57,844 bases of DNA from Candidatus Nitrosopumilus sp. GTDB lineage: Archaea; Thermoproteota; Nitrososphaeria; Nitrososphaerales; Nitrosopumilaceae. The notes beneath the pieces were generated by a model. It was not told the origin of the DNA, ran no database searches, and saw only the letters and a program-made list of their open reading frames with translations. Position numbers and translations under genes: made by a program. Position 1 is the first letter of the stretch; each line of letters begins with the position of its first letter. Where the stretch lies: the NCBI GenBank assembly GCA_028448965.1, contig JAONQT010000002.1, positions 1 to 57,844 on the forward strand. The letters run 5' to 3'. Positions 8,275 to 20,358 of this stretch are shown piece by piece.

Positions 8275-11200
8275 TTACTGTACAGTTATTGTTGTACTGA
8301 CTGGTGGTGATAATGCCGTTGGATTATCTACTGATTCCCATACGAATGCAGTTGCTGTGTAGCTACCACTTTCGGTTGGAATCCAGGATAATGCAGGGCT
8401 GAATGATTGACCACTAGATAGTGAACCTGTAATCCATGCAAGGGAGACTGTAACACCGTTACCATCTTGAACTTGTACTAAGTATGCGAATGATTGCTCT
8501 CTATCTTGACCATTTGCTAATTCAGCACTGATTTGCACCTGTTGATCTACGCTAACAGAGGTTAAGCTGTTACCGAATGCGTCAACTGTTCTCAAGTTAG
8601 CAGCTGGTGCTCTCTCGAGAGGTGGTACAACAGTACCGATTAGTGATGTGGCTGTGATATCAAGTTCATCTGCAGTAGTATATGGTTCAGGTAATGTATT
8701 GTCCTCATATTCTGCGGTGACAGTGTCACCTTCTGCGACTCTGAGTCTGTGACCTGAAGATTCATTGGTAGTTGTAAAGAATACAGTACCCTCGAATATT
8801 CCGGTTGCCTCATTAGTCTCAGTTACAGTAAGGTCAATACCTCCGGCGTCGGAGTCAGACCAAGCGTCAACATCGAAGTTGTCGATTGCTTCTGGATCTA
8901 AGTTCATATCTGCGTCAATTACTCTTATTACACCTGTTCCGCTTGCTGGATAGCTGGCCTCGAGCCATTGTACCTCACCGATGTTCCATCTGATTAATGC
9001 TGAACCTACAACTGTTTCATCCTCTGAGAATTCAAAGGAGACAGTTAGTCCGTCATTGTCAGTGGTTGCAAGTTCACCGCCTGTTGGGCCATTTGTGGCA
9101 CCAGTAGTTCGGCTAGCTTGTGTTCCGGTTATATCATAACCGTCAGTACCGGTAGAACTGTCACCATCTGCATCGTGTTTCATACCTTTGAGTGTTACCT
9201 CACCGATAAAGATACCAGTGTCAGCTCCTGATTCAACGAGTTTGTATTTGTCGAGTTCGTTTCCACGAGTTGATACTTTAATAGAATCATCTGCTGTGTT
9301 TCCGATTTCATCGACTAATCCACTATCGAAGTTATGATCAGGGGCGACAATTGTGATGTAGACTTTGTCAGTCCATGTGTATACTTTTTGATCGAGTTCA
9401 ATTGTTGCACCGAAGTTAGAAGTATAGACAGTTAAGCCAATATCTTCATCTTCTTGTCCAACATAGTCAGCTCCGGCTGGACCCCAGTCGGTATATTCCA
9501 AGTCGATTTTCTCACCTCTGTCCAACAGATTACTATTCAACTTTGAAGGGATTTCGATGACTACTTGGAAGATTCCAGTAGAGTCACCTGTCTCTCTAAA
9601 TGCTGATGGTTCTGGGTCAAAGGCTGCATTAGCTCCAGTGACACCTAAGGCACCCATGGAGGTTTCTGCTGCATCAGAATCCCACTCAATCAAATCGAGT
9701 GTGTAGGATTCTGCGCCGTCATTATCGAGGTCAAAGTCTGGCTCAATTAAGGTTAAGATCATGTCTGAACCAATTAAGTAAACAGATTTGTCAGATTGTA
9801 ATACACCGTTTCTAAGGTCAAATGTTGCAGAGTCAGTTACAGTTTGTGACTTACCAGAAGCGTCTTGATTATCTGTGTATGTTACAGTGATAATATCACC
9901 TTGCAATACACAACCGGAACTTAGTGTAGTGTTAGTTGTCGTTGGACAATTCTCACTTGGGCCACTAGTGTATGTTACGGTTTGATCGTATTCAAAGACA
10001 CCAGAATCTGGTGAAACTTCAACAAGTTGATTAGCGACAGAGTCACCTACGGTGGCAACTGTTACTGAATCAGAACCTCTTTGAATCTTGATTGCGACAC
10101 TTGAATCTGTTATCACGTCTTCACCAGCTGCTGATATATCATAATCAGCGTCGGTTACTCTGACGTGAACAACTACATCACCTTGGGCTAGATCAGTAGC
10201 GGTACCACCGTTTGAAGTTGCGTGCAACTTGAAGGTAGTCTCACTAGCTAGGTCTGAACCAAATGGTACTGGATATACAGTTCTATCAAAAGATACGGAT
10301 CCAGTGTTTGCATTAATGCTTGCACCGTCACCTACTTCGATTGTTTCACCAGAAGCATCACGGAAGTCGTTATAGTTTACTTCAATGTCCGTACCAGTTA
10401 CACCAGTAACAGAGTCAGTTTCACCTGCATCTCCATCAGTGGCACAGTAATTGGTTGGGACTTGGAAGCTACCGGTAAAGATACCAGAAGCGACATCAGA
10501 CTCTAATAATGTAAAGCCTGTTGCCTCTAAACCATTGTCTCCAGTGACGTCACTAGCAGTACAATCACTATCATTTTTAGTGTGTACCCAGGTTAAGTCG
10601 TCAAATGTTATGTCAAGAATATGATCACCAGAACCGTCACCGACTTTATCATCAGTTGATGTAATGTATACATCAACTAATTCAGAGTCAGTGTTTAGGT
10701 CTTGGTCATCTAAGGTTACAACAACAGTGTCTGCAATCTTATAGTTATCATTATCAAGTGTAACTACACCACTGTGTGATGGAGCTTCTACTTGATCTGC
10801 TATTTGAGTGCTAACACCATCTGCTCCAAGATCCAAATAATTGATTCTTGGTGAATCTTCATCAGTTAAGTCCTCGTGGACAATGATGTTGATTTCATCA
10901 GATGCAGTGACGAGCCAATCAGAGTAAGTTGCGGCTTTGTTGGTATTTAATTGATTTAGCATAAGATACTCAACTGAGCCGACAAATTCACCTGTATTGT
11001 CGTCAGATTCCTCTAAGTAGAGTCTGTAAATGGCGTTGTTTGCTCTTGCAGTATCATCTGATCTAAAAGAAAAGAAGTCTACATAGAAATCATCGCCAAC
11101 AGCAATTGCTGGAGCTGCAGAGATGTTGATAGTAACTAAGTCACTACCATTTGCACCTTGCAATCCATTAATTGTAATAGCCTCGAGTCCTTTGACTAAT

Positions 11201-12855
11201 AATGCAGTACTGTTAGTTGTTGCTACAATAGTTGCATCATGATCTTCAAAGGTCATTGCAGTGATTGCTGTGGCAGCTGTCAATGATGTAATATCATAAT
11301 TGACAAATGCATAACGACCACTGTCGTTTAAGGCTATCAACTCATCTACAGTAATATCAGAAACGATTTCGATTTTTGCTGCATCTACATCGCCAGATAT
11401 TGCGTCGACACTTGCAATCTTGCTGAAAGAGCTAACACTGGTACCATTACCATTGTCAACTGCTTCTCCGCCAGGTGCAGGGCCTCCGATGGTAGTGTCA
11501 TTACCTAATGATAATGGGCTACCAATCTGTAAAGAAGGAACTATTGCTGAAGATATAACAATATCTTCATCACTAGCTGTGTTTTTGTTAAAGTCTTGGT
11601 CATATAGTATAACTGTCATCTCTTCACCGGAATTCCACTCATCACCAACAGAGGTCTCATCCATATCGATAGTACCAAAGTCATTTGCTACTACGAAGGA
11701 GTATGAACTATCATTGAAATTGAAAGTTGCTGTTGTACCTCTTTTGGCTGTTGAGTTTGTCATTAGATTAGAATCATCAGCATCATCAGTGTTAACAAAG
11801 ACACCGGTATTCTCGGCAGTTTCCCAGAATACCATGAATTCGTCACCAATGACGTCATCAAGGGTTGAATCGTTTACTAATACAGTACCGACTGCACCAT
11901 TGGTGTTGTTGTTGATGGTTAATAATCCGTTATCGCCGTTAGAATTACTCTCTGGTTTAAAGTAAACATTTTCAATACCGTAAACACTTGTGGCACCTAC
12001 CGTTGGTAAGGTACCGTTAGTGAAACTCATTGATGCTCTATCGCCGGCTAAGCCTTCGGTAGAACTTAATGAACCAGTATTGTTGTTTCTAACTTTAAAG
12101 ATAATAATATCTTCAGCGGTTGGGTCGATGTTTAATCCAGGATCAGTAATTGTGATGTGAATCTCTGCGCCTTGCGGTGCTGAGGTTCTATCAAATTCGA
12201 TACCTGCAAATGCGTCGATATCACCGGTTTCGTGTTCCAGTGTAACGACTTCATCGGCTCCGGCTTGTTCTAGTACAATATCAAATGTTCCTATAGTTAG
12301 ATCCAATGTTTGGATGAAAGGCCATTGTGTTGATGTTTGCACACCAATTTGACCTAAGTCCGTACTACTATCAGCATTAATGTACGAATTGTTAAAGCTG
12401 GATAGTGTTGGTGCATTACCGATAACTCCGGCTGCTGCAGTGTGGAACACTCTAACACCCGTGTTATTTGTAACACCTGTTACAGCTGCTGCTGTACCAA
12501 AGTCGAGGTTATTGGATGCGACATCACCGTCATAAACGTGATCGTTGCTGCCGATGTATGCGTACCAATTACCGTCGTTACCTTGTGCCATTCGGATAAC
12601 ATTGCTGTTAACTCTGACGACAGGTTCACCTTGTTGTTCGTCAGTTTCGGATCTATTAGAATCTCTAACAACGATTTCAACAATTTGGAATCCATTAAAG
12701 GAATTTGCGTATTGTGCGTTTTCTGCGGAGACATATAATGCGCCTGCGGCTGCGGCTTCTGGCACCATTGAAGGTGCGGCAATAACCATACCACCGGCTA
12801 ACATTATTGTCATTAGCGTAAGACTAGTTAATTTACGTCCTATTTCGTTATTCAT
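8275..12855 (-). CDS. Giant S-layer protein with repeated acidic Ig-like domains
   Basis: 1526 aa; signal peptide (SLTLMTIMLAGGMVIAAPSMVPEAAAA); strongly Asp/Thr/Ser-rich; repeated (S/T)GxF and D-x-D-x-N-x-D-like motifs; higher GC and distinct codon use. Confidence 0.9.
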   Translation of the reverse strand: MNNEIGRKLTSLTLMTIMLAGGMVIAAPSMVPEAAAAGALYVSAENAQYANSFNGFQIVEIVVRDSNRSETDEQQGEPVVRVNSNVIRMAQGNDGNWYAYIGSNDHVYDGDVASNNLDFGTAAAVTGVTNNTGVRVFHTAAAGVIGNAPTLSSFNNSYINADSSTDLGQIGVQTSTQWPFIQTLDLTIGTFDIVLEQAGADEVVTLEHETGDIDAFAGIEFDRTSAPQGAEIHITITDPGLNIDPTAEDIIIFKVRNNNTGSLSSTEGLAGDRASMSFTNGTLPTVGATSVYGIENVYFKPESNSNGDNGLLTINNNTNGAVGTVLVNDSTLDDVIGDEFMVFWETAENTGVFVNTDDADDSNLMTNSTAKRGTTATFNFNDSSYSFVVANDFGTIDMDETSVGDEWNSGEEMTVILYDQDFNKNTASDEDIVISSAIVPSLQIGSPLSLGNDTTIGGPAPGGEAVDNGNGTSVSSFSKIASVDAISGDVDAAKIEIVSDITVDELIALNDSGRYAFVNYDITSLTAATAITAMTFEDHDATIVATTNSTALLVKGLEAITINGLQGANGSDLVTINISAAPAIAVGDDFYVDFFSFRSDDTARANNAIYRLYLEESDDNTGEFVGSVEYLMLNQLNTNKAATYSDWLVTASDEINIIVHEDLTDEDSPRINYLDLGADGVSTQIADQVEAPSHSGVVTLDNDNYKIADTVVVTLDDQDLNTDSELVDVYITSTDDKVGDGSGDHILDITFDDLTWVHTKNDSDCTASDVTGDNGLEATGFTLLESDVASGIFTGSFQVPTNYCATDGDAGETDSVTGVTGTDIEVNYNDFRDASGETIEVGDGASINANTGSVSFDRTVYPVPFGSDLASETTFKLHATSNGGTATDLAQGDVVVHVRVTDADYDISAAGEDVITDSSVAIKIQRGSDSVTVATVGDSVANQLVEVSPDSGVFEYDQTVTYTSGPSENCPTTTNTTLSSGCVLQGDIITVTYTDNQDASGKSQTVTDSATFDLRNGVLQSDKSVYLIGSDMILTLIEPDFDLDNDGAESYTLDLIEWDSDAAETSMGALGVTGANAAFDPEPSAFRETGDSTGIFQVVIEIPSKLNSNLLDRGEKIDLEYTDWGPAGADYVGQEDEDIGLTVYTSNFGATIELDQKVYTWTDKVYITIVAPDHNFDSGLVDEIGNTADDSIKVSTRGNELDKYKLVESGADTGIFIGEVTLKGMKHDADGDSSTGTDGYDITGTQASRTTGATNGPTGGELATTDNDGLTVSFEFSEDETVVGSALIRWNIGEVQWLEASYPASGTGVIRVIDADMNLDPEAIDNFDVDAWSDSDAGGIDLTVTETNEATGIFEGTVFFTTTNESSGHRLRVAEGDTVTAEYEDNTLPEPYTTADELDITATSLIGTVVPPLERAPAANLRTVDAFGNSLTSVSVDQQVQISAELANGQDREQSFAYLVQVQDGNGVTVSLAWITGSLSSGQSFSPALSWIPTESGSYTATAFVWESVDNPTALSPPVSTTITVQ

Positions 12856-13064: not shown

Positions 13065-14387
13065 CTAATTTTTAGATAATAGTGTTTTGTAAAGTGCAAT
13101 TGCGTCAGATTCATCTTTTGAACCAACCACAACTGCAGATCCTCTTTTCATGAAATTAACAGATAATTCATTTGTTCTCATAGATAATCCCAAGTCACCT
13201 AAATTCTCAACTAGAAATCCTTTTTCTTTTGCAATTGCTGAAACACTAACAGAGTCTAAATCAAAAGTTTCAGTTGGAGTAATAGAGTAAGTTCTCTTTC
13301 CTCTGTTTCTTCCACATAACTCTTCCAAAATTAATTCCTGTTTTTCAACAACTTCTAATTTTCCGGTTCCACAAATTGGACATTCATCAGCTCTGAATGT
13401 TTTTGTACTGTTAAAATCTAAATTTTCTAAATCAATATGTAAAATTCTATTTGAAAGATTTGGTTTCTTTCCAGTAATTATTTTTACAGCTTCTGCAACT
13501 TCTATTCCACCCATTATAGAAAGTATTGATGGATGTACTCCTTCAATACTGCATGTTGGCATTGTATCTTCATCAAGTGCTGGAAACATGCAATAATAGC
13601 ATGCAGATTCTTTTGGTAAAATTGTAAATGCTTGTCCTGATGTTCCAACTGCAGCACCGGTTACAAATGGAATATTAAATTTAACACAAGCCTTGTTTAA
13701 TGCATAACGTGCATTAACTGAATCAAGTGCATCAATTACAACATCACATCCTTCAACAACTTCAAGTGCTGTATAATCATTAACTGAAACAGTTAGTGCT
13801 TCAATGTTACATTCAGAGTTTAATTTTCTTAATTTTTTTGCTGCTGTTTCAACTTTAACTTGTCCAACGTCGGATTCATCAAATAATGTTTGCCTATGTA
13901 AATTAGATAACTCAATTACATCTCTATCAACAATTCTTAAAGTTCCTACACCCATTGCAGTTAATCTTGTAATAATTGGATGTCCCAAGCCCCCAGTTCC
14001 AACAACACAAACTTTAGAATTTTTTAATTTTAACTGTCCATTGTATCCAATTTCCTCAAGCATTACTTGACGTGAATATCTATCAAGTTCTTTTGAAGAT
14101 AAATCCTCAGAACCTCCTGCAACTGCAGGTAAAATATACACTTCATCACCGTCACTTAGTGGGGTTTCCATACCACTAGAGAATTTGGCATTTTTGCCAT
14201 TAATGTAAATATTAATCAAAGAACGTGGGGTGTTATCAGCCTCTAAAACTCTGCGCTTAAAATCATCACCTAAAATTTCAGATATTTTTACAAAAGCATC
14301 TTGTAAAGAGTCGGCAGAAATTTCAGATTTTTTTTCTCCACCGCCTGCATTAAGTACTGAAGGGATTGTAAATGTGATATTTGCCAT
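13065..14387 (-). CDS. Fusion of an N-terminal MoaD/ThiS-like beta-grasp domain and a MoeB/ThiF-type E1 adenylyltransferase, plus a C-terminal extension
   Basis: LINIYINGKNAKF...LSDGDEVYILPAVAGG (MoaD-like tail), then LDRYSRQVMLEEIGYNGQLKLKNSKVCVVGTGGLGHP; CYYC...CPIC zinc ligands; MPTCSIEGVHP catalytic-Cys region. Confidence 0.9.
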   Translation of the reverse strand: MANITFTIPSVLNAGGGEKKSEISADSLQDAFVKISEILGDDFKRRVLEADNTPRSLINIYINGKNAKFSSGMETPLSDGDEVYILPAVAGGSEDLSSKELDRYSRQVMLEEIGYNGQLKLKNSKVCVVGTGGLGHPIITRLTAMGVGTLRIVDRDVIELSNLHRQTLFDESDVGQVKVETAAKKLRKLNSECNIEALTVSVNDYTALEVVEGCDVVIDALDSVNARYALNKACVKFNIPFVTGAAVGTSGQAFTILPKESACYYCMFPALDEDTMPTCSIEGVHPSILSIMGGIEVAEAVKIITGKKPNLSNRILHIDLENLDFNSTKTFRADECPICGTGKLEVVEKQELILEELCGRNRGKRTYSITPTETFDLDSVSVSAIAKEKGFLVENLGDLGLSMRTNELSVNFMKRGSAVVVGSKDESDAIALYKTLLSKN

Positions 14388-14388
14388 A

Positions 14389-15609
14389 TTATTGAACTAC
14401 CGCTGAGATTTCATTAATGTTTGGCTTGTAAACAGTTGGTTTTGTTAGTACTTGCATAATTGATTCAGTTGCTTTTAGACCATTACCAGTAACATAACAT
14501 ACGACTTTGTCATTTTTATCAATTTTACCTTGTTCAACCATTTTTTGTAATACAGAAATTGATACACCGCCTGCAGGTTCTGTAAAAATTCCTTCAGTTT
14601 GAGCTAGTAAAAGTATTGAATCTAAAATTTCTTGATCATTACATTCTTCTGCAAATCCATTATACTGTTCTAATCTTTTCAAAACATAACGACCATCACC
14701 AGGATCTCCTATTGCCAAACTCTTAGCTACAGTATCAGGATTTTCAACTGGAATAACTTCTTTAGTATTTTTCTTAAATGCATCAACAATTGGAGCACAT
14801 CCATGTGGTTGTGCTGCAATCATATGCATATTAGAAACATCATCAAGTAATGAAACAGTTTGTAATTCTTCAAATCCTTTACAAATTGCATTAAGCATTG
14901 CACCACTTCCTACAGGAACTATTAGTTGATCAGGTACTGTCCAATCAAGTTGTTCTGCAACTTCAAATGAAAATGTTTTAGAACCTTCTACATAATGTGA
15001 ACGCATGTTAATATTCACTATACCAATTCCTTTACTATCACCAATTTGAGCTGCAATTCTATTTGCATCATCATAAGTTCCATCAACTGCAATGTAATTT
15101 GCACCATAAGCTAGTGCTTGTGTAATTTTTGCCATCTCAATATTACTTGGTGCAAATACATGACAGGGTAATCCTGCAGCTGCTGCATGTGCTGCAGTTG
15201 CTGATGCTAAATTACCAGTAGATGCACAACCAACAGCAGTTAATCCAAGTTCTTTTGCTTTTGATATTGCAACACCTGCAGGTCTATCTTTAAAAGAAAA
15301 TGTTGGGTTTACTGAATCATTTTTTATGTATAAATTATTTAGGCCTAATTTTTTTCCGAGATTTTCTGCTTTAGTTAATGGAGTCATTCCTGCACCGATA
15401 TTTACAATATTTGATTTGTTCTCTATTGGAAGTAATTCAAAATATCGCCAGTAGGTCTGTTCCCGATTGGAAAAAGTGTCCTTGGTAAGTGAAGGAAAAT
15501 TATATTTTACATCTAGTGGACCAAAACAGTCATCACAGACATATTTGAATGCCGTTTCATACTCTTTTTTACATTCTCTACACTGTAATGAAGTTCTAGT
15601 CAAGATCAA
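14389..15609 (-). CDS. thrC: Threonine synthase-like PLP enzyme
   Basis: N-terminal zinc-finger-like CRECKKEYETAFKYVCDDC; PLP lysine SFKDRPA; GCASTGNLASATAAHAA; probable TTG start. Confidence 0.9.
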   Translation of the reverse strand: MILTRTSLQCRECKKEYETAFKYVCDDCFGPLDVKYNFPSLTKDTFSNREQTYWRYFELLPIENKSNIVNIGAGMTPLTKAENLGKKLGLNNLYIKNDSVNPTFSFKDRPAGVAISKAKELGLTAVGCASTGNLASATAAHAAAAGLPCHVFAPSNIEMAKITQALAYGANYIAVDGTYDDANRIAAQIGDSKGIGIVNINMRSHYVEGSKTFSFEVAEQLDWTVPDQLIVPVGSGAMLNAICKGFEELQTVSLLDDVSNMHMIAAQPHGCAPIVDAFKKNTKEVIPVENPDTVAKSLAIGDPGDGRYVLKRLEQYNGFAEECNDQEILDSILLLAQTEGIFTEPAGGVSISVLQKMVEQGKIDKNDKVVCYVTGNGLKATESIMQVLTKPTVYKPNINEISAVVQ

Positions 15610-16313: not shown

Positions 16314-16640
16314 TTATTTTAATTCATGATGGAAACAAACTTTTTCACCAGTATGACATGCAGGGCCTGATGGTTCAACAAGATAAATTATTGCATCAGA
16401 ATCACAATCAACTAAAATTCCTTTAATTTTTTGAGTGTTACCAGATTCTTCACCTTTCATCCAAAGCTTATTTCTTGAACGACTCCAAAACCAAGAATTA
16501 CCAGTTTTTTTGGTCAGCTCTAAAGATTCTTTATTTGTATAAGCAAGTGTGAGGATATCTTTTGTATTAGCATCTTGAACAATTACAGGTACAAGTCCTC
16601 CACTTTTTTCAAAATCAATTTCATCAATAGATTTATTCAT
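16314..16640 (-). CDS. hisI: Phosphoribosyl-AMP cyclohydrolase
   Basis: VIVQDANTKDILTLAYTNKESLELT; WFWSRSRNKLWMKGEESGN; DCDSDAIIYLVEPSGPACHTGEKVCFH. Confidence 0.96.
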   Translation of the reverse strand: MNKSIDEIDFEKSGGLVPVIVQDANTKDILTLAYTNKESLELTKKTGNSWFWSRSRNKLWMKGEESGNTQKIKGILVDCDSDAIIYLVEPSGPACHTGEKVCFHHELK

Positions 16641-19389: not shown

Positions 19390-20358
19390 TTATTCTAAAT
19401 TTAATACCTTTGGTAGGAGATTAATTGAATCTAAAACAAGAATAGCCTCATTTTGCTCAAATAATTTTAATTTTTCCTTAGGATTTTTGCTAGTTCCAAT
19501 TATTCCACAAAAAGTAGTTTTGTGACCCAAAATTGTTGCTTTCTTAGCCATAAGAAAATCCTCCATGGAGTCACCAACATACAGACAAGATTTACTATTC
19601 ATACCAATTATACAATTTAGAAGTGCCTGAGGGTTTGGTTTTGCTAGTTCTCGTGATTCATCCTCTAAAAATACTGAATTTGTTAAATCAAATTTTTCTA
19701 ATAGATATTTTAATGAATAATTAACAGATTCTTTTCCTCTTCCAGTAACCATAGAAATTTGTTTATCAAATTTTTTCTGTAATTTGATACATAATTCATC
19801 ATTAAAAATAACATAATCGTTTTCAATTAAACCAGGATCAGAAAATTTTGAAATAGTTTTGAATAATTCTGAATAGAGTTTAGGTCCATAAAATAATTGA
19901 TCAAATATTTGATACAAAATATTTTCTTTATGAGTGCCAGGATAAGATAATTTGTTAATAATTTCAGAAATATCAATTTGAGTTTTTAGAAAATTTTCAA
20001 CGGATTTTATACCAGTTGAATCAGAGTTTTTTATTACAGTAAAAATAAATTCAGTTTGATCTTTTTTTAATTTTTTTGCAGCGATAATTGAAAGAATTGA
20101 GGCATAAGTTAAATCAACTTCATCATTAAATCCTCCAGTAGATTTGAATCCATCAATTATTTTAAAATCTATATCAATTGCATCAGAAATATTTACTAAA
20201 GTTTCTAATACATATTTTGTAGTTTTAATAATTGTTTCATCATATGATTTTGTAATATCAATTAAAACACCATCACAATCAAAAATTAAACTATCAATTT
20301 CAATATCATTAAAGGAATCATCAACATAAATTCCCTCAAATTTCTGTTTTAAAGTCAT
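19390..20358 (-). CDS. HAD-superfamily hydrolase inside the his operon (candidate histidinol-phosphate phosphatase)
   Basis: HAD motifs FDCDGVLID, SMVTGRG, YVGDSMEDFLMAK; located between hisC and hisB. Confidence 0.85.
   Translation of the reverse strand: MTLKQKFEGIYVDDSFNDIEIDSLIFDCDGVLIDITKSYDETIIKTTKYVLETLVNISDAIDIDFKIIDGFKSTGGFNDEVDLTYASILSIIAAKKLKKDQTEFIFTVIKNSDSTGIKSVENFLKTQIDISEIINKLSYPGTHKENILYQIFDQLFYGPKLYSELFKTISKFSDPGLIENDYVIFNDELCIKLQKKFDKQISMVTGRGKESVNYSLKYLLEKFDLTNSVFLEDESRELAKPNPQALLNCIIGMNSKSCLYVGDSMEDFLMAKKATILGHKTTFCGIIGTSKNPKEKLKLFEQNEAILVLDSINLLPKVLNLE

Follow-up and report, generated by a model that had tools for sequence, protein, structure and literature searches.

The stretch of DNA analysed in this work (hereafter the window) spans 57,844 nucleotides of a Candidatus Nitrosopumilus contig and embeds, on its minus strand, a gene coding for a threonine-synthase-like (ThrC-like) PLP enzyme followed by a gene coding for a sulfur carrier fused to an adenylating E1 enzyme (Table 1). 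Both open reading frames lie where the original prediction, made from the sequence alone, had placed them, and the 1-nt gap between them was also found: a single T separates the TAA stop codon of thrC from the ATG of the fusion gene. The ThrC-like enzyme matches the Pfam family PALP (1.7e-72), while the fusion matches ThiS at residues 54-92 (1.1e-8) and ThiF at residues 104-337 (4.2e-74). Moreover, the solved structure nearest to the carrier is that of M. tuberculosis CysO (3dwg, 4.7e-11 over carrier residues 3-92), and for the E1 part the matches are ThiF and MoeB; this is in agreement with the joined MoaD/ThiS-like and MoeB/ThiF-type domains proposed previously. The zinc ligands, which had also been predicted, correspond to four cysteines (C263/C266/C336/C339) that are invariant in the seven fusions compared, as are C279 (at the ThiF-type catalytic-cysteine position), R106, and D222. 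The fusion also possesses a C-terminal region of about 95 residues, absent from the original prediction, which contains an invariant E-L-C motif and is common to stand-alone archaeal E1s and to PRK12475-type E1s.

Table 1. Coordinates of the features of the thrC-fusion locus and of the nearest his gene in the window.
Feature	Position	Strand
Threonine-synthase-like PLP enzyme, 406 aa, candidate archaeal MetM (homocysteine synthase)	14389..15609	-
Sulfur-carrier/E1 fusion, 440 aa, candidate MetO-E1	13065..14387	-
Carrier domain, residues 1-92, beta-grasp, end PAVAGG	14112..14387	-
MoeB/ThiF-type adenylating domain, residues ~94-345, four zinc cysteines	13353..14108	-
C-terminal ~95-residue region, ELCGR motif, invariant C358	13068..13352	-
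hisI-type phosphoribosyl-AMP cyclohydrolase, nearest gene of the adjoining his cluster, outside the system	16314..16640	-

Among 151 genomes drawn from the phylum, the window genome and 21 further Nitrosopumilaceae harbor the full fusion, and thrC is located directly upstream of it in all of them (22/22). The same adjacency is kept in 79 out of 80 named Nitrososphaerota loci, which include Nitrosopumilus, Nitrosarchaeum, Nitrosotenuis, Nitrosotalea, Nitrosopelagicus, Cenarchaeum, and Nitrososphaera, the remaining locus stopping at a contig edge. On the basis of these two counts, the adjacency is not due to chance. Outside the genomes harboring the fusion, carrier and E1 are usually encoded by separate genes arranged on one strand in the order thrC-carrier-E1, and thrC plus carrier (usually plus E1) recurs in about 18 family-level groups; thus, the arrangement extends far beyond the close relatives of the window genome. 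In three loci (L063, L064, and L066), the carrier gene follows thrC with no E1 nearby, which suggests that the primary bond is the one between ThrC and the carrier.

The genes surrounding these operons, whose key members were confirmed by HMM, often include those for sulfite reductase and TusA. Sulfite reductase and TusA follow the E1 gene in L035-L037 and L050, and are divergent from the operon in L040 and L042; in L050, a gene for homoserine dehydrogenase is also embedded between carrier and E1, and the cluster of L067 comprises cysteine synthase, a transporter, CysH, ATP sulfurylase (Sat), sulfite reductase, TusA, thrC, carrier, and E1. Among the neighbourhoods examined, to which the search for MoaE was confined, none had a recognisable copy. 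Three other arrangements were observed. An SbnA/CysM-like PLP enzyme is encoded directly upstream of the thrC-carrier-E1 operon at L042:7353-8498 and L040:6588-7772 (the former recognised by HMM, the latter by the similarity of its start). Directly downstream of the operon, L048:9710-11767 harbors a short CysM-like ORF and then a second E1, an organization resembling a CysO-type and a MetO-type system placed side by side. Lastly, a stand-alone E1 followed by a gene for a JAMM-type protease, with no thrC and with short repeats just downstream, lies at L049:4719-5132.

The analysis of the phylogenetic tree revealed that all the operon ThrC proteins (24/24) belong to one group (100/100; none of 500 shuffles was as low), and that the threonine synthases of Aquifex (2zsj) and Bacillus (6cgq) fall outside it. 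Characterised threonine synthases exhibit the motifs STGNTS, SFKDRGM, and NSxNPxRxEGQKT, none of which is present in the window enzyme; the latter possesses an N-terminal CxxC...CxxC, STGNLA, the PLP lysine K107 within SFKDRPA, and NxRxxYVEGSKT. The operon ThrCs share STGNLA, SFKDRPA (or a near variant), and [NT]xRxxYxEGSKT, and the diagnostic changes occur in all 79 readable named copies. The altered [NT]xRxxYxEGSKT stretch presumably contains contacts with the substrate phosphate. The possible existence of a second thrC had also been raised; indeed, a second Nitrosopumilaceae ThrC of about 450 aa, over the TIGR00260 cut-off and with canonical motifs, was found in relatives (L053:950, L054:7733, and L201:490), so that the operon ThrC is not the sole ThrC-like protein of these genomes.

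Pathway searches were carried out on 44 genomes and, since the window assembly is 54% complete, the statements on gene absence rest on its relatives. No full-length PF01053 enzyme (MetB/MetY), no HcyBio (PF01837), and no MetX was found in 21 Nitrosopumilaceae, in 7 Nitrososphaeraceae-like genomes, or in six genomes of two further families (f39/f40); hence, as regards the metY/metB genes that the original prediction had proposed to look for, the tested ammonia-oxidising relatives appear to be devoid of a conventional homocysteine pathway. The partial PF01053 matches (≤43 bits) in ammonia-oxidising archaea span about one third of the model, and for this reason they were dismissed as cross-hits due to the fold. 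Homocysteine is nonetheless needed: the homocysteine S-methyltransferase PF02574 is present in all 28 Nitrosopumilaceae and Nitrososphaeraceae-like genomes, where MetE was rejected as the methionine synthase. This finding agrees with PMC8397731, according to which most ammonia-oxidising archaea have a B12-dependent metH. Sulfide can be made (sulfite reductase in 42/44 genomes), and cysteine is mostly served separately, by a CysK-type enzyme present in 26/28 genomes (not found in G068 and G108), whose gene lies beside TusA in G013. Therefore, only the thrC-fusion locus remains for homocysteine. Eight operon-bearing genomes do have another route (four with HcyBio and four with a PF01053 enzyme), and thus the carrier route may be redundant there.

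Based on the separate clade, the altered motifs, the pathway gap, and the precedent of MetM/MetO, we suggest that the two genes encode a homocysteine synthase dependent on a protein thiocarboxylate and corresponding, in archaea, to the MetM/MetO of Streptomyces, a reading to which we assign a probability of about 85% and which upholds the thiocarboxylate route from O-phosphohomoserine to homocysteine originally proposed. According to this model, the E1 domain would use ATP to adenylate the C-terminal Gly-Gly of the carrier and would then load sulfur, as sulfide or via TusA, so that a thiocarboxylate forms on the carrier. The ThrC-like enzyme would bind O-phosphohomoserine, whose phosphate would be lost by PLP gamma-elimination, and the carrier sulfur would attack the gamma carbon, in place of water on the beta carbon, yielding homocysteine for methylation by methionine synthase. 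The carrier tail might be freed by proteolysis, for which JAMM candidates exist, or might be active while still fused. Genome G068 (99% complete and of the same genus) is counted against this reading, as it is without the thrC-fusion operon, E1, and CysK, contig gaps being possible, yet keeps the second ThrC, PF02574, and sulfite reductase.

In Streptomyces, metO reportedly lies downstream of metM, and the thiocarboxylated MetO is said to be the sulfur donor. MetM converts O-phosphohomoserine to homocysteine (Hasebe et al. 2024, doi 10.1128/aem.01247-24, as cited in PMC12172450), and the carrier MetO comes from the same organism and is linked to it by neighbourhood, according to the account in PMC12172450. 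The archaeal pair likewise consists of a ThrC homologue linked to a ThiS-like carrier ending in Gly-Gly. It differs in being archaeal, in that Nitrosopumilaceae and related families have the carrier fused to E1, and in the sulfite reductase, TusA, and homoserine dehydrogenase genes of operons elsewhere; in addition, S. albulus metM has a SAM riboswitch, as described in PMC12172450, whereas none was detected in the window, the sole Rfam match there being a tRNA. A search of plasmids and phages gave one relevant match, a Nonomuraea record encoding a ThrC that shares 44.6% identity with the window enzyme and then a 91-aa carrier ending in PAVAGG; this uncharacterised pair nests within the operon ThrC clade (100/100). 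The archaeal pair probably works like MetM/MetO and probably belongs to the same family, an assignment made by way of the Nonomuraea pair.

Other carrier-dependent systems are less close. A protein-thiocarboxylate methionine route is known in Wolinella (Krishnamoorthy and Begley 2011, as cited in PMC5764234), and the bacterial operon class 4e (PMC1779556) combines carrier, E1, SirA, sulfite reductase, and O-acetylhomoserine sulfhydrylase, its E1 being without rhodanese. The archaeal system resembles these in the predicted synthesis of homocysteine from a protein thiocarboxylate, in its E1 (no rhodanese domain was found in the fusion), and in the TusA/SirA and sulfate-assimilation neighbours. 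Unlike these systems, no JAMM gene adjoins the pair in the window, and a ThrC-like enzyme of fold type II replaces the MetY of Wolinella HcyS/MetY (fold type I, PF01053, acting on O-acetylhomoserine) and takes the position of the sulfhydrylase of class 4e. With the mycobacterial CysO/CysM/MoeZ/Mec+ system, the archaeal one shares the type of carrier, nearest to CysO in the PDB, and a fold type II PLP partner predicted to act on a phospho-amino acid; it departs from it in that this partner belongs to the ThrC family rather than being CysM, the E1 is without rhodanese, and the predicted product is homocysteine. The CysO and HcyS systems originally invoked hold as analogues but not as the closest relatives, MetM/MetO being closer.

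One alternative, which the original prediction had left standing, is that of an ordinary threonine synthase placed without functional meaning beside an E1 for molybdenum cofactor synthesis or tRNA thiolation. The window enzyme does score over the threonine-synthase cut-offs (PRK08197, 310 vs. 303; TIGR00260, 291 vs. 167), and its top Foldseek matches are threonine synthases. Similarly, a thaumarchaeal MoaD-MoeB fusion (cluster 356.1, found in 61/98 Thaumarchaeota), which is very probably of the same family as the window fusion, has been assigned to molybdopterin biosynthesis (PMC11237513); as far as the account of this cluster goes, the neighbouring ThrC is not linked to the fusion, and in the literature searched we found no paper linking a MoaD-MoeB fusion to ThrC or to homocysteine. 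A cyanobacterial thrC has been described next to a carrier gene resembling metO of S. albulus, and a cyanobacterial homologue 51.6% identical to MetM behaved in vitro mainly as a threonine synthase/deaminase, which is counted against our main reading (PMC12172450). On the other side, the separate clade with its changed active-site motifs, the second, canonical ThrC available for threonine, the adjacency in 79/80 loci, and the sulfite reductase, TusA, and sulfate-assimilation genes of the operons all speak for a distinct function, and the other Nitrosopumilaceae carrier (see below) looks tRNA-linked; in our opinion, this alternative is highly improbable.

Cysteate synthase, a relative of ThrC, acts on O-phosphoserine, and it is conceivable that the window enzyme makes cysteine from this substrate and the carrier thiocarboxylate, as CysM/CysO do, or both cysteine and homocysteine. 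The nearness of the carrier to CysO and the case of G108 (1.2 Mb), which keeps the operon and in which no CysK-type gene was found, fit this idea, whereas the cysteate synthase model TIGR03844 gives 83 bits on the window enzyme, far under its cut-off. The separate CysK-type enzyme of most genomes, the cysteine synthase already present in the L067 cluster, the homoserine dehydrogenase inside the L050 operon, and the lack of another homocysteine route in the tested ammonia-oxidising genomes render it very unlikely. It is also possible, and compatible with the main reading (so that its likelihood is judged by itself), that the fusion is a shared sulfur-activation hub for tRNA thiolation, molybdenum cofactor, or protein modification, with homocysteine as one of its clients. 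In agreement with this idea, one E1 match but two carrier genes were found in most Nitrosopumilaceae; nevertheless, the loci in which carrier and thrC co-occur with no E1 nearby tie the carrier to ThrC, and we consider the hub a tentative proposal, on balance doubtful.

The second Nitrosopumilaceae carrier, in which a Urm1/ThiS domain is joined to CGI-121 (a family of KEOPS subunits), looks tRNA-linked. The presence of one E1 and two carriers suggests that the E1 of the fusion probably charges this carrier too, a role that adds to the homocysteine reading and does not replace it. The Urm1/ThiS-CGI-121 fusion was observed beside a THUMP-like ORF at L197:745-1515, L198:434-1207, and L199:823-1599; in another genome (G156), the second carrier stands alone (L200:755-1009).

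A further issue concerns the maturation of the fused carrier. Most stand-alone carriers end exactly with GG, two having short tails, and the fused ones run on past GG, the next residue being mostly S or A; this internal position of the Gly-Gly in the fusion is a point against the main reading. In the structural model of the fusion (pLDDT 77.8), the Gly-Gly falls inside a low-confidence linker (residues 88-111). JAMM proteases, which the original prediction had proposed to look for, were found in 42/44 genomes; in the two where none was found (G055 and G161), the carrier is stand-alone and its last residues are GG. This distribution fits a cleavage of the fusion, as a correlation among few genomes. 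A more elaborate version, in which the fusion of ammonia-oxidising archaea is either permanently tethered or matured by cleavage and the same ThrC-like enzyme makes the homocysteine of all these archaea and also cysteine in CysK-less lineages such as G108, appears unlikely to us; if the tethered or cleavage-matured arrangement were true, charging and sulfur transfer would be coupled in one polypeptide.

Few autotrophs in the sea and in soil are as abundant as the ammonia-oxidising archaea. According to PMC8397731, pathways for amino-acid biosynthesis are present in them throughout. The thrC-fusion locus is most likely the missing route to homocysteine, and hence to methionine, in a marine ammonia-oxidising archaeon, which would imply the re-annotation of a widely conserved "threonine synthase + MoaD-MoeB" pair and would take the MetM/MetO chemistry beyond bacteria, into a wide variety of archaea. 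The novelty lies in the archaeal branch, in the fusion of the carrier, and in the gap that would be filled, since the chemistry itself is already known; the pair also offers a concrete, assayable example of a ubiquitin-like carrier joined to its own E1.

Two other features of the window deserve mention. A secreted-looking protein of 1526 aa with no Pfam match, possibly an S-layer component, is encoded at 8275-12855 (-), and an adjoining ORF of 322 aa shows a weak similarity to SlaB. Within the his cluster, the gene at 19390-20358 (-) codes for a HAD-family hydrolase, TIGR01548-like although below the cut-off, which is a candidate for the often-missing histidinol-phosphatase.
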